From a virus, in IMG/VR virus record IMGVR_UViG_3300023198_000838, positions 1-47,281 of that record: 47,281 bases of DNA; one strand, 5' to 3'. The notes beneath the pieces are model-generated. The model made no database searches. It was not told the origin of the DNA and saw only the letters and a program-made list of their open reading frames with translations. The translations under genes and the position numbers were made by a program. How positions within the stretch are numbered: the stretch's first letter is position 1; each line of letters begins with the position of its first letter. Below, one piece after another: positions 173 through 37,660 of this stretch.

Positions 173-373
173 ATGAGTCAACTTGAGCTATTCGAAGAGC
201 GGGCGGCAATCATGCAGCACGACGGAGGCCTGACCAAACAGGAGGCCGAGCACGCCGCGGCCCTAGCCGTGGTCCGCTGCCTACCGCTAACCCAGGAGCA
301 GGCAAAGACGTTCCAGGGGCTCGGATGGAGCGCCGGGAAGGCTATCCGGTTTTTGGAGAGGGGTCATGCGTGA
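173..373 (+). CDS. Small hypothetical protein upstream of the methyltransferase
   Basis: A 66-residue protein of unknown function, rich in Glu, Ala and Gln, with no membrane segment or cysteine motif that I can recognise. Two ATGs lie side by side at 170 and 173. The second is preferred because the AGAGAGG ribosome binding site ends five bases before it. The gene overlaps the start of the methyltransferase by eight bases, so the two are probably translated together. It is the first gene after the promoter at 127-155 and could serve as a leader or accessory gene of the modification locus. No function can be assigned. Confidence 0.6.
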   Translation: MSQLELFEERAAIMQHDGGLTKQEAEHAAALAVVRCLPLTQEQAKTFQGLGWSAGKAIRFLERGHA

Positions 374-1235
374 GCTGGCATTATTTGCCGGAGCTGGCGG
401 AGGAATTCTCGGGGGGGAGCTCCTCGGATGGCGAACAGTGTGCGCCGTTGAAATCGAGCCCTTCTGTCGGGAGGTGCTCATGCGACGCCAGTTGGGTGGA
501 TGCCTACCGAAGTTCCCTATCTGGGACGATGTCCGAACGTTCGACGGTAAACCGTGGCGTGGAAAAGTGGATATCATCTCTGGAGGATTCCCGTGCCAGG
601 ACATCAGCGCCGCCGGCAAAGGGGCAGGAATCGACGGCCCGAAATCTGGGCTTTGGCGGGAGATGGCAAGAATCGTTGCAGAGGTACGACCGCAATTTGT
701 CTTCGTGGAGAACTCACCTTTGCTTGTTCGCCGAGGCCTTGCCGTGGTCCTCGGTGACCTTGCCGAAATGGGGTTTGATGCGCAGTGGTGTTGTGTATCG
801 GCGGCGGACTGCGGAGCGCCCCATAAACGGGAGCGGGTGTGGATACTGGCCGACACCCCGGAACAACACTGGACCGGACACGAGCAAACGGAATCTGTCG
901 TTGGACGGCGCGGTTCTACTGTTTCCTACCCCTCGGGCGGAGGACAGCCAGTGCTCCGGGGGGCACCGGGGAAAGGACGATACACTCTACGGTCTGATAT
1001 GCAAACCGAAAGCAGGCACCATGGCGGACATGAATCAGGCAAGATTTGCCTGGAGCGACCAGAGGCGGCAGATATGGTCAACCCCCACTGCCACCGATGC
1101 CATCAAAGGGGGAAAAGTGTCGCCACGTCCTGGCGCGATGGGATTATCAGAGCAAACGGGTGGCCAGCTGAACCCAACGTGGGTCGAGTGGCTCATGGGG
1201 TGGCCCAGAAATTGGACAAATTTAGAAAGGATTAA
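366..1235 (+). CDS. dcm-like: C5-cytosine DNA methyltransferase, catalytic part (motifs I to VIII)
   Basis: This protein would methylate cytosine in DNA using S-adenosylmethionine. Visible motifs are the AdoMet loop FAGAGG (residues 7-12), the catalytic loop PCQDIS with Cys77, the ENS motif (115-117) and a motif VIII-like segment with KRER (153-156). Near the end it reads GRVAHGV, which in this family precedes motif X, but translation then stops; the usual last motif (RLKALGN...P) is missing here. That motif occurs at about 1582-1620 in the frame of the overlapping ORF. GGAGAGGGG precedes the ATG at 366. With 289 residues it is shorter than a complete single-chain enzyme. It may need the overlapping product for activity, as in two-subunit C5 enzymes such as M.AquI, or it may be inactive. 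Confidence 0.85.
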   Translation: MRELALFAGAGGGILGGELLGWRTVCAVEIEPFCREVLMRRQLGGCLPKFPIWDDVRTFDGKPWRGKVDIISGGFPCQDISAAGKGAGIDGPKSGLWREMARIVAEVRPQFVFVENSPLLVRRGLAVVLGDLAEMGFDAQWCCVSAADCGAPHKRERVWILADTPEQHWTGHEQTESVVGRRGSTVSYPSGGGQPVLRGAPGKGRYTLRSDMQTESRHHGGHESGKICLERPEAADMVNPHCHRCHQRGKSVATSWRDGIIRANGWPAEPNVGRVAHGVAQKLDKFRKD

Positions 1236-1665
1236 CCGTGACGATTTCGATAAATGGCTACAGGAGACGAGCCCAAAAGATGAGGGCGAACAAATGCGAA
1301 CGATGTGGTGGGATAGAGACCCTTCAATCTCATCATCGCGACAGGAATCCAGCGAACGACAGCACAGAGAACATAGAGACGCTATGCCAGGTATGCCATA
1401 CGGCGGATCACTTGGCGGACGGGACATGGGGGAAAGGGGCCGTTCCAGCAGCGGCGTGCGCAATATGCGGAGAGACGTTTCAGCCAAAACGCAGACGGAG
1501 GAAAGGGCGGATATTGTGTGGGAAAGCCAAATGTTCGAGGGAAATGGGGAGACGATCGGCCGCGTTGCGGTGGGTGTCAAACACCGCGTAGACCGACTTA
1601 AAGCCATTGGAAACGGCCAAGTTCCACGAGTGGCAGCAACAGCATGGAGGATTCTGAGCGAATGA
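529..1665 (+). CDS. Overprinted ORF with methyltransferase C-terminal motifs IX/X
   Basis: This ORF is open from 325 to 1665 in another frame over the methyltransferase. The start at 529 is a guess from where family-like sequence begins; 325 is the alternative. From about 860 on it has features I recall from proteins encoded beside phage C5 methyltransferases: repeated WPTP/FPTP/STPTATD segments, GGQLNPTWVEWLMGWP and WWDRDP. It ends with RVDRLKAIGNGQVP, a convincing methyltransferase motif X. Its stop overlaps the terminase start as ATGA, which supports real translation. The stretch at about 1325-1550 is Arg/Ser-rich and low in complexity, and is probably the shadow of the inserted HNH gene. 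It may supply the target-recognition and motif X part of a split enzyme. Confidence 0.6.
   Translation: MSERSTVNRGVEKWISSLEDSRARTSAPPAKGQESTARNLGFGGRWQESLQRYDRNLSSWRTHLCLFAEALPWSSVTLPKWGLMRSGVVYRRRTAERPINGSGCGYWPTPRNNTGPDTSKRNLSLDGAVLLFPTPRAEDSQCSGGHRGKDDTLYGLICKPKAGTMADMNQARFAWSDQRRQIWSTPTATDAIKGGKVSPRPGAMGLSEQTGGQLNPTWVEWLMGWPRNWTNLERINRDDFDKWLQETSPKDEGEQMRTMWWDRDPSISSSRQESSERQHREHRDAMPGMPYGGSLGGRDMGERGRSSSGVRNMRRDVSAKTQTEERADIVWESQMFEGNGETIGRVAVGVKHRVDRLKAIGNGQVPRVAATAWRILSE
1238..1591 (+). CDS. HNH endonuclease embedded in the methyltransferase locus
   Basis: A 117-residue HNH nuclease starting at GTG. The HNH core is CERCG (Cys20, Cys23), SHHRDRNP (His32/His33), the Asn region near 45, and CQVCH (Cys50, Cys53). 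A second zinc-binding unit follows, CAIC (74-77) with Cys94 and Cys99 and a basic linker. This layout is typical of phage free-standing homing endonucleases. The gene begins two bases after the stop of the catalytic methyltransferase ORF and lies wholly within the overlapping motif X ORF. It therefore separates WWDRDP from IGRVAVGV in that frame without closing it. Homing activity is inferred from family and position. Confidence 0.82.
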   Translation: MTISINGYRRRAQKMRANKCERCGGIETLQSHHRDRNPANDSTENIETLCQVCHTADHLADGTWGKGAVPAAACAICGETFQPKRRRRKGRILCGKAKCSREMGRRSAALRWVSNTA

Positions 1666-2213
1666 AGCTCGTTTCGAAAAAGGACTTCGCGGAGCTCGCC
1701 GGAGTCTCGAGACCAGCGATCTCAAAAGCCGTTAGACAGGGGCGAATTCCAGTAACAGCAGATGGCGCCATCGATGCCGATGCCAAGGAATGCAAGGCGT
1801 ATCTGTCCGCAAAGTCGAAGCGCGTGAAGGCAAAGGCGAAGCGACCGAGGCCGAAAAAGAAGCCGACGGCGCCCAAGGTCGACGAAGTTGCCAGCGCAGC
1901 CGACAGGCTCACGCTGGAGCGCCGGAAGCTCGCCGCGCAGACCCAACAGATAGAGCTCAAGAACGCCCAAATCGAAGGCCGACTGGTAGCCCGCGAGGTC
2001 ATGATAAGTGGGGTCTGGAATCCCCTAGAGACGTTCTTGGTTCGGATACTGACGGACGGCGCTAAGACGATGGCGGCCACGGTCCACCCACTCGTGAAGT
2101 CAGACGGTACCCGGGAGGAGGTCGAGGTCGCACTTCGGCAGGAGCTCACCTCGTTTATTGTCCCTCTCAAGGAGTCGATACAGAGGGCGCTGAAGCTGGA
2201 TAAGAACGGGTGA
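1662..2213 (+). CDS. Terminase small subunit (Nu1-like)
   Basis: A DNA-recognition subunit for genome packaging. Residues about 5-25 form a helix-turn-helix (KKDFAELAGVSRPAISKAV), as in lambda Nu1. A Lys/Arg/Pro-rich linker and a predicted helical region that would bind the large subunit follow. The ATG at 1662 overlaps the previous stop as ATGA and is preferred to the ATG at 1644. The large subunit starts two bases after the stop. With 183 residues the size matches Nu1-type proteins. The specific packaging site it recognises is not identified. Confidence 0.85.
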   Translation: MKLVSKKDFAELAGVSRPAISKAVRQGRIPVTADGAIDADAKECKAYLSAKSKRVKAKAKRPRPKKKPTAPKVDEVASAADRLTLERRKLAAQTQQIELKNAQIEGRLVAREVMISGVWNPLETFLVRILTDGAKTMAATVHPLVKSDGTREEVEVALRQELTSFIVPLKESIQRALKLDKNG

Positions 2214-35044: not shown

Positions 35045-35335
35045 CTATGTCCAATCCCTGTCTTTGACAATATTCCAGGCGCCAGTGATACACTCATCGA
35101 TGTCGATGCTGTTCAGTGTACAAAAACCCATGAGGTGTATTGCGATGTCTCCAACTGCATCCCTGATGTTGTCATCGTGATTTTCGTCGCCACGGATGCC
35201 CTGATGCTTTTTTAAAAATGCATGGGCGAGCTCGCCGACTTCCTCTTGTAGGCCGACCAGGCATTCCCACTTCTCAGCGTTTGGGAAGTTTTTCTTTTGC
35301 CAAACTCCATGCTCTTTTTGTAATTTAGATAGCAT
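35045..35335 (-). CDS. MazG-like nucleotide pyrophosphohydrolase
   Basis: A 96-residue all-helical protein of the MazG type. The metal-binding motif EEVGEL (about 31-36) and the later DAVGDIAIHLMG fit the EExxE...ExxD pattern, with Asp in place of the first Glu in the second part. MazG proteins hydrolyse nucleoside triphosphates and can lower alarmone levels or clean nucleotide pools. It overlaps the start of the gene map's DNA methyltransferase end by eleven bases. The family is clear; the substrate is not. Confidence 0.8.
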   Translation of the reverse strand: MLSKLQKEHGVWQKKNFPNAEKWECLVGLQEEVGELAHAFLKKHQGIRGDENHDDNIRDAVGDIAIHLMGFCTLNSIDIDECITGAWNIVKDRDWT

Positions 35336-36302
35336 CGAATAACCCGACCTGTTCCGTTTTATCTTTGAGATAAATACCGGGCTTGCATTCTTTCATGTTT
35401 GCGATAGCTTGTCGGTAATAGCTGTTTTTCAATTCGATACCGATGCCTCTACGATTGAGCGCAATTGCCGAATACACCTCCGAGCCGACTCCCATAAAAG
35501 GAGTCAAAACCGTCTCCCCTTCGTTGGACCGCAGGGATATAGCCCGGTCAATAACGTCCAGCTGAAGAGGGTGGACGTGTTTCTCATCTTCCGGATCCTT
35601 GCAATCCTGATACGGCAATACGCGGCCCATATCCACATCATCCCATACGGATGAGGCGTATCGTCTCCATATCCAATGTGAAAATTTATTCAACTTTTGG
35701 TCTCCGTCAAACCCTTTGTATTTATGTAATTCGGATGGAATTGGACACTCGCCAGAGTAGTGGTCAAGCCCAGTAGGATGAGCAACCGGAATCTGATTTT
35801 TGCCGTTTTTGCGAAAAATCAAAAGATAGTCTGCCGATGCCACTCCTCCTAATACGGCGTCATCTATAATCGTCTTGTGCGATAAATTTTTTGTCATTGT
35901 GCGATTGCGAACCCATAGCGGCTCTTTCCATATGGTGTGACGAGCTATGTATTTGAATCCGCATTTTTCGTGCAGGCGTATCAGGTCGCCAGGGAAGTCT
36001 ACAAGATGGTCGCATCCAGAATTGCCAGAAGGCACGTCTGTGCAATGCACTGCTGTTATTCGTCCGCTCATGGTCACTCTGGCCAATTCCTCGACCACAA
36101 ATCCGTAGTGCTCAAAAAACTGGTCGTAGTCTCTGCAATTCGAAATGTCTCGCTCATCGCTTGAGTAGTGATACAGTCCGCCAAAAGGAGGAGAGTAAAT
36201 CGACATATGGATTTTATTATCTCCAATGTCGCTCAATACGTCGATGCAATCCCCATTGTACAGGGCGTAGTTATTTTCTATTAATTGGTCTTTTACAGCC
36301 AT
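35325..36302 (-). CDS. DNA methyltransferase, N4/N6 amino type (SPPF)
   Basis: A 325-residue adenine-N6 or cytosine-N4 methyltransferase. The catalytic motif SPPF (37-40) comes first and the AdoMet motif TPFMGVGSE (about 270-278) near the end, which is the beta order. The NGDCIDVL segment before SPPF and the GIGIELKNSYY following motif I are typical. Ser in SPPF favours N4-cytosine, but this cannot be settled by sequence. It overlaps the helicase by ten bases, so the pair is co-expressed. It may protect phage DNA from host restriction. Confidence 0.88.
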   Translation of the reverse strand: MAVKDQLIENNYALYNGDCIDVLSDIGDNKIHMSIYSPPFGGLYHYSSDERDISNCRDYDQFFEHYGFVVEELARVTMSGRITAVHCTDVPSGNSGCDHLVDFPGDLIRLHEKCGFKYIARHTIWKEPLWVRNRTMTKNLSHKTIIDDAVLGGVASADYLLIFRKNGKNQIPVAHPTGLDHYSGECPIPSELHKYKGFDGDQKLNKFSHWIWRRYASSVWDDVDMGRVLPYQDCKDPEDEKHVHPLQLDVIDRAISLRSNEGETVLTPFMGVGSEVYSAIALNRRGIGIELKNSYYRQAIANMKECKPGIYLKDKTEQVGLFDAI

Positions 36303-37660
36303 GATGGCGCCTCCATTATATTGGTATGGTCGTTGATTTTTCTGAAGTCAGTAGAGCGAGACATCTCTGATACCAGATTTGAAAACATCTTCTGAGCAGC
36401 TGTTTTTTTACGCTGCATATTTTGCATAACACGCTCGTCACCCTTGGTCATTACGACATCAACTTTCACAGGTCGTTTTTGACCAAATCTCCAGCACCTA
36501 CGTATTGATTGATAATACTGCTCATACGAGTGAGACGGAAAAAATGTCACATGGTTGCAATGTTGAAGATTGAGACCCCATGCCCCAATTTTCGGCTTTG
36601 AAACTAAAACCCTCGCCTCGCCCTTCGCGAAGGCAGTCAATTTGCGCTCTTTGGCTTCATCGCTATCGCGTCCAGAAACCTGTATACATCCAGGGATTAG
36701 CTTCTCGAGAAGATTCCCCTCATCATTGAGATGACACCAAACCATCGCATAATCATTGTGGTCAACAAGCTCAGCGACGGCCTCACATCTCTCGCCGATA
36801 GTCCGCTTGCGCTCTATTCGTTGCTCATGGAGGTTCGTGGCAGGGATGTCAAATAACATGTCGTCGCGCGGAGCCCTAGCGTCTATCATTATTCTGTTTT
36901 CGGTTAGTTCTGGAAGAATAAATCCATCGTCGTCAAACCCTAGGTCAGACGGATACCTGCATGCCATGGCCCATGAGGTCACCCATCGCCAAAATGGAGA
37001 CTCCGAATGACCCTTGAATCTCCACTTTGGCGCCTCACCATAAAATCGTTTTGTACCCGAATTGTTCAAATCGTTTTTAAAGTATCGGTTAAGCATATCC
37101 ATGAGCCCGATATTTCCGAGAGCTTCGCTTGAGGTGCCTAGTTCGGTGTAGTCGTTTGGGGCCGCAGTTGCCGTTGCGAGTAGCCTATAGCGGACCTTTT
37201 TCAAAAACTCCGTAATCTGATTTTTGTACGCGCCGTTGAATGATTTCAGTATCGATGATTCGTCGCATATGACACCGGAAAAATCGTCAGGTGAAAAATG
37301 ATGCAATCGCTCGTAATTGGTAATCTGTATTGGCGCATTTATGATACCATCCCTAGCTCTAATGCATTCAATACCGAATTTTTCGCCCTCTGTAGTGGTC
37401 TGGTGAGACACTGCCAGAGGTGCCAGTATCAGAACCGGCTTATTTGTGGCGTAGGAAATATTCTGAGCCCACGTGAGTTCCATTATCGTCTTACCAAGAC
37501 CGCAGTCGGCAAAGATGGCAGAGCGTCCCTTGTTAAGTGACCAGCGAACAATATGCTCTTGAAAGTCGAACAAACCATCCGGCGAGAATTTAAACGGAAT
37601 TTCGTCACCAGCGCCGCAATGGTTTTTAGACTCAACAAATTTGCGATATTCAGTAATCAT
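36293..37660 (-). CDS. SF2 (SNF2-like) helicase or translocase
   Basis: A 455-residue DNA-dependent ATPase. Motifs seen: Walker A DCGLGKT (52-58), motif Ia APLAVSHQ, Walker B CDESS (132-136), motif III LLATATAAPND, and motif VI QSIRRCWRFGQKRPV (about residue 389 onward), the latter being SNF2-like. It is coupled to the SPPF methyltransferase gene. Helicase-methyltransferase pairs occur in phages and in host defence loci such as DISARM, though no nuclease partner is present here. The likely role is in phage replication or in helping modification. Confidence 0.87.
   Translation of the reverse strand: MITEYRKFVESKNHCGAGDEIPFKFSPDGLFDFQEHIVRWSLNKGRSAIFADCGLGKTIMELTWAQNISYATNKPVLILAPLAVSHQTTTEGEKFGIECIRARDGIINAPIQITNYERLHHFSPDDFSGVICDESSILKSFNGAYKNQITEFLKKVRYRLLATATAAPNDYTELGTSSEALGNIGLMDMLNRYFKNDLNNSGTKRFYGEAPKWRFKGHSESPFWRWVTSWAMACRYPSDLGFDDDGFILPELTENRIMIDARAPRDDMLFDIPATNLHEQRIERKRTIGERCEAVAELVDHNDYAMVWCHLNDEGNLLEKLIPGCIQVSGRDSDEAKERKLTAFAKGEARVLVSKPKIGAWGLNLQHCNHVTFFPSHSYEQYYQSIRRCWRFGQKRPVKVDVVMTKGDERVMQNMQRKKTAAQKMFSNLVSEMSRSTDFRKINDHTNIMEAPSWL

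Follow-up and report, generated by a model that had tools for sequence, protein, structure and literature searches.

Two wholly overlapping reading frames in a phage genome are both maintained by selection: frame B encodes another protein under selection, and it covers the whole of frame A. The frames lie on the forward strand of a viral stretch of 47,281 nucleotides (IMG/VR record IMGVR_UViG_3300023198_000838; hereafter the window). Sequence comparisons make it likely that the locus specifies a single C5 cytosine methyltransferase produced as two polypeptides from these overlapping frames, A being the catalytic and B the specificity subunit.

Two reading frames over one methyltransferase locus

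A preliminary description of the window had drawn attention to two overlapping open frames with C5 features, A at 366–1235 and B at 325–1665, and had noted that A holds motifs I to VIII and stops before motif X. Both points were confirmed. Frame A (366..1235, + strand, 289 aa) encodes a C5 cytosine methyltransferase catalytic polypeptide: residues 2–170 place it in the Pfam family PF00145 (E 2.7e-33) and the PHROGs profile phrog_363 matches it at E 1.1e-60. The catalytic motifs I (381–404), IV (PCQ; 582–608), VI (ENS/ENV; 702–716) and VIII (819–842) are all found on this single chain. Its C-terminus reads GRVAHGVAQKLDKFRKD and then stops, without a motif X; a decayed motif X, VAQKLDKFRKD, is present in frame A at 1200–1232.

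Frame B is open on the same strand from 325 to 1665 (446 aa) and, as first described, it is this other frame that ends with motif X (IGRVAVGVKHRVDRLKAIGNGQVP, 1555–1626), a motif read in frame A in loci without the insertion discussed below. The protein counted from GTG 370 (370..1665, 431 aa) consists of an N-terminal part over motifs I–VIII (370..846), which stays open under weak constraint; the target-recognition region (TRD; 847..1158), with PTP units in B at 847, 922 and 1078 and an open linker in A; motif IX (1159..1206); and, in this lineage, motif X. The shared bases at motif IX, which the preliminary description took for family sequence in both frames, read WPAEPNVGRVAHGV in A (1161–1202) and GGQLNPTWVEWLMGWP in B (1159–1206). 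Frame B has no match in Pfam; phrog_1008 (DNA methyltransferase) matches the section of it that shares DNA with A, at E 7.2e-22.

The open stretch of B stood as described. As its start, ATG 325 was rejected because it is not conserved. The start of B is most likely GTG 370, since a start codon exactly 4 nt after the start position of A is found in 142 of 148 distinct loci (ATG in 134, GTG in 8). In the window A begins with ATG 366. The commonest start string across the loci is ATGAATGAG, and an Asn at the second residue of A is always written AAT, never AAC. There are 32 loci without a start codon at position 0 of A (TTA, CTA and others in its place); in most of the listed examples A begins upstream and the start of B is kept. 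Shine-Dalgarno-like 4-mers occur upstream in only about two thirds of loci and, where found, cluster at −9 to −7 relative to A, a position that suits both starts. From a single Shine-Dalgarno site, which the two frames would share, ribosomes probably initiate at the start of A and at the second start 4 nt downstream.

The next gene downstream resembles a terminase small subunit (1662..2213, + strand; phrog_57, E 1.2e-15), and its ATG at 1662 shares bases with the TGA stop of B (ATGA). Upstream, a small ORF at 170–373 ends in a TGA (371–373) that overlaps the GTG start of B (GTGA), just past the ATG of A; this suggests that it is translationally coupled to the A/B pair.

The arrangement is not peculiar to the window. 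Loci were gathered by B peptides, by A peptides and from phage records, and come from isolates, prophages and viral contigs; in tblastn searches of phage genomes A and B hit shared stretches of DNA in other phages, each in its own frame. Across 167 homologous loci we counted 195 stops in the +1 frame against 859 expected from shuffling the synonymous codons of A within each sequence, and 2725 in the +2 frame against 2284 expected. The openness of the +1 frame far exceeds what chance would give. In most loci the remaining +1 stops lie at the two ends of the longest open stretch, as judged from per-locus lengths. Among 80 loci gathered through A peptides only there were 88 +1 stops against 415 expected, so the overprint is no effect of how loci were selected. 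A genome scan returned a further 377 relatives, those listed being mainly from Pseudomonas, Acinetobacter, other Proteobacteria and Verrucomicrobia MAGs.

In the 194 loci with recognisable motifs IV and IX, motif IX is in frame B (+1) in 191; the sole same-frame case is that of mycobacteriophage DillTech15. Motif X was found in frame A in 177 loci of this set and in frame B in five, and motif IX was not seen in any A frame of the window's family. One Gallionella MAG contig (L192) has A interrupted after motif IV and resumed in a different frame, which may reflect a frameshift or an error of assembly. Six phage records of the window's family were inspected: only A is annotated in five and only B in one. 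Frame B alone, as a hypothetical protein, is annotated at locus L002 (PP083311.1, 21734–25216), where the catalytic frame A carries no annotation.

Selection on the two frames

Off-frame similarity may be no more than a shadow of the conservation of A. On account of this risk we relied on synonymous shuffles, on the phase of substitutions and on single-frame controls; shuffled-alignment similarity was by itself indecisive, because the third frame rose too. The first codon position of A is the third of B (A1 = B3), and the phase of substitutions thus reveals which frame rules each region. In 148 close pairs, differences at A1/A2/A3 were.108/.055/.241 over motifs I–VIII,.410/.238/.241 over the TRD and.151/.067/.134 over the IX/X segment: A rules motifs I–VIII, B rules the TRD, and both rule IX/X. 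Of 35 disjoint pairs, those with enough differences gave A3 as the largest over I–VIII in 33 of 33 and A1 as the largest over the TRD in 29 of 33. In the single-frame enzymes of DillTech15 type, which served as control, A3 was largest in every region. A second overprinted lineage, of C72C1 type, gave.350/.195/.180 at A1/A2/A3 over its TRD, which is again the pattern of B.

Each frame also remains open where the other rules. Within the TRD, 1243 B-synonymous differences produced none of 2052 possible stops in A, while the residues of A change freely, with little regard to similarity; the stops that A does have across the TRD number 17, confined to three loci, against 316 expected. Being open yet free in its residues, this stretch of A must be read through, as a linker would be. 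Over motifs I–VIII the converse holds: 2136 A-synonymous differences among homologues include none that creates a stop in B, and very radical changes in B are realised about half as often as conservative ones, a trend that the third frame lacks. These two observations argue that the N-terminal half of B is translated, under weak amino-acid constraint. The idea that B is a mere shadow of A is accordingly rejected: B is itself selected in the TRD and motif IX, and more weakly in its N-terminal half. An outcome that would have counted against the preliminary description, a frame B without homologues or constraint, was not what we found: B has hundreds of homologues, a conserved start and selection at the amino-acid level.

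The C-terminal half of B carries PTPxAxD units and the sequence LNPxWVEWLMGWPxGWT; to judge by these motifs, it is what serves ordinary C5 enzymes as TRD and motif IX. DillTech15 has PTPxAxD units, EWMMGWPAGW and motif X all in one frame, and phrog_1008 matches the TRD/IX/X half of that single-frame enzyme at E 3e-76 and the B protein of locus L026 at E 1.6e-35. In 67 B proteins the motif IX columns L267, N268, P269, W271, E273, W274, L275, M276, G277, W278 and P279 are invariant or nearly so; across loci B carries several different types of TRD.

Structure models were made with AlphaFold. In the complete A of L026, motifs I–VIII and the motif X helix are confidently folded, the best PDB matches are M.HaeIII and M.HhaI, and residues 174–228 and most of 248–275 fall below pLDDT 50. 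That the middle regions of A are linkers overprinting the TRD of a partner would explain their low complexity. B modelled alone is of low confidence (mean pLDDT 53), poor except around motif IX. Such a model would suit a subunit dependent on a partner, though it is no proof of one.

An HNH gene between motifs IX and X

Two features of the locus had escaped the preliminary description. Besides the extent of the overprint, which covers the full length of A with starts 4 nt apart, there is a third ORF at 1238–1591 (+ strand), in the third frame, that encodes an HNH endonuclease; and it was by the insertion of this gene that motif X entered frame B. The ORF matches the HNH profile phrog_14913 at E 2.4e-7, and PF01844 (HNH) at E 0.0026, which is below the cut-off of that Pfam family. 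It contains CERCGG (1295–1312), SHHRDRNPANDSTENIETLCQVCH (1328–1399) and C-terminal zinc-finger-like cysteines (1457–1534), and begins with a GTG 3 nt past the stop of A, with AAAGGA upstream.

Comparison with uninvaded loci, L140 and L124 places the inserted segment at 1207..1591, limits that are approximate. Its 5′ end, read in frame B as RNWTNLERINRDDFDKWLQ (1207–1263), mimics the native C-terminus of B, IGWTDLKPLETDKFxxWLQ. To the left of the insert the GRVAxGVxxRLDRL segment persists as a diverged copy. Downstream, behind the HNH stop, the third frame reads a remnant of the native B C-terminus (TDLKPLETAKFHEWQQQHGGF and then a stop, 1589..1657) and frame B reads the native motif X. The insertion between IX and X therefore changed the relation of the frames.

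Motif X in frame B, together with an early end of A, is found in the window, L030 (of which L032 is a near copy), L045, L124 and L140; a related HNH is inserted in L140 and a different one in L124. Frame B runs through all three of these HNH genes without a stop, against 3.0, 4.6 and 4.7 expected (p 0.026 in the window, where 3.0 were expected, 0.0015 in L140 and 0.002 in L124). The HNH ORF is presumably mobile. A Staphylococcus phage gene annotated as a DNA-cytosine methyltransferase (ON325435.2, 38028–38147) matches the window's HNH, possibly another such insertion.

A proposed two-polypeptide enzyme, its alternatives and its relatives

The enzyme that we propose would work as follows. A would be the catalytic subunit, with SAM binding, the PCQ nucleophile loop and motifs I–VIII; B, in the +1 frame, would be the specificity subunit, contributing the TRD and motif IX. 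In most relatives A bears motif X as well, past an unstructured linker that overprints the TRD of B. In this phage an HNH endonuclease gene has entered between motifs IX and X; A was left without X, and B now reads in frame across the insert as far as the former motif X. The TRD, IX and X of the window are all in frame B, and its enzyme is complete only if A and B act together; it would consist of A (I–VIII) plus B (TRD, IX and X), with the third-frame HNH ORF as a mobile passenger. A and B are thus predicted to form a heterodimer, the A+B enzyme to methylate, and the window's shortened A and extended B may likewise be active together.

We weighed three other explanations. Programmed ribosomal frameshifting would yield one enzyme, translated in A for motifs I–VIII, slipping +1 into B for the TRD and IX and, in most loci, slipping back for X. 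The order of motifs in the DNA is indeed the normal one (I–VIII, TRD, IX, X), the phase of substitutions passes from A to B beyond motif VIII, and in loci of the window's type one slip would suffice; most loci, however, would need two opposite slips. Moreover, a slip after motif VIII has no use for the conserved second start at +4, for a B that is open and constrained over I–VIII, or for an A kept almost free of stops over the TRD, and the B of C72C1-like loci has its own stop 42 nt past IX in 29 of 30 cases. For these reasons we consider frameshifting improbable. We give the same low weight to the view that A and B are separate proteins of unrelated function, B being for example a regulator or an anti-restriction protein. 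The N-terminal half of B is another reading of the catalytic region, with no function assigned to it, and B alone is not confidently folded, as that view would allow; but the C-terminal half corresponds to what ordinary C5 enzymes have as TRD and motif IX (phrog_1008), no motif IX was seen in the A frames of the family, and the loss of X from A coincides exactly with its gain by B in five loci.

The remaining explanation, a sequencing error or the frameshifted relic of a normal single-frame methyltransferase, scarcely merits belief. The window's A does stop ahead of motif X, as such a relic might; yet the identical relation of frames recurs in 191 of 194 loci, with both frames under selection. 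A single-base error, named at the outset as a possible undoing of the observation, is hard to reconcile with an arrangement present in about 190 loci, and error and pseudogene are both rejected. The split, overprinted enzyme to which we return had been offered at first as one of two readings, the other being an enzyme and a second conserved protein sharing the same DNA; in a sense both appear to hold. A broader proposition is a tentative one, quite possible and still short of our full assent: that a large class of phage C5 enzymes is an obligate two-protein enzyme encoded by fully overlapping frames with starts 4 nt apart, catalysis and target specificity thereby being written in one stretch of DNA, that the N-terminal half of B was added by overprinting and has a part to play in assembly or regulation, and that third-frame HNH inserts can shift a catalytic motif between subunits with the enzyme still working.

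Split C5 enzymes have precedents. The two ORFs of M.EcoHK31I overlap in different frames. In that two-polypeptide enzyme motifs I–VIII and X are on one chain and IX on the other; in M.AquI, also of two polypeptides, the large subunit has I–VIII and the small subunit the distal variable region with IX–X (PMC3404938). Most relatives of the window share the division of motifs of M.EcoHK31I (IX in B in 191/194, X in A in 177). They differ from it in that the TRD of M.EcoHK31I is predicted in the large subunit, whereas selection places that of the phage family in B, and in that the phage B covers A from end to end, its start only 4 nt from that of A, an arrangement found in hundreds of phage loci; the window differs further in that A ends at 1235 without X, which is in B. 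The window, L030, L045, L124 and L140 are instead like M.AquI, with I–VIII on A and the TRD, IX and X on B, although the split in the window seems to be derived from an EcoHK31I-like state by insertion between IX and X, and its B spans the whole of A.

The insertion too has a parallel. Passages on ShiLan tell of HNH genes inserted out of frame in mycobacteriophage methylases, where the ends show a comparable mimicry (PMC11855218). The two cases share a third-frame HNH ORF in an insertion across which the methylase frame stays open and whose start resembles the sequence of the insertion site. The HNH and the host gene described there are different; the window's host gene is itself two-framed, hence three frames are in use, and its insertion shifts motif X from the A polypeptide to B. 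An A/B overprint is not described in those passages.

Our search covered an open-access full-text collection and found there no description of a full A/B overprint. As far as that collection shows, the new elements are an overprint of the whole gene with starts 4 nt apart, widespread in phages; selection divided by region; and an HNH insertion that shifts X between frames. Long same-strand overlaps with region-wise selection on each frame are rare and hard to prove, and here hundreds of natural variants are to hand. The results suggest that, among phage genes whose annotation is that of a whole cytosine methyltransferase, many supply only half of the enzyme. If so, the practical rule is to clone both frames; and a mobile endonuclease could rewire such a split enzyme and perhaps leave it working.

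Sequence like the TRD and motif IX lies in the +1 frame in further C5 lineages, so the split may be more widespread than this one family. In the C72C1-like methylases (L257–L317), a second C5 lineage, the TRD and IX are in the +1 frame and B is shorter: most of the loci listed have an ATG 281–290 nt ahead of motif VIII, and 29 of 30 distinct loci have a stop 42 nt past IX. TRD/IX-like sequence also occurs in the +1 frame of A in L007, L318 and L319 (Rhodobacter phage RcRios type) and in L171, L172, L173 and L175. The single-frame actinobacteriophage enzymes of DillTech15 type (phrog_116/363/1008) share with the window's family the types of PTP repeat, motif IX (EWMMGWPAGW in the single-frame enzymes) and motif X; they differ in having all motifs in one frame and 72 nt from IX to X, against about 41 in the window's family. 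Among DillTech15-like loci (L322–L401) motif IX is in the same frame as IV in 32 and in the +1 frame in 13; the family may span the transition from single-frame to split. Elsewhere in the window, on the − strand at 35325–37660, adjoining helicase-like and methyltransferase/helicase-like ORFs (phrog_62/16 and phrog_67/16) are possibly one split protein.
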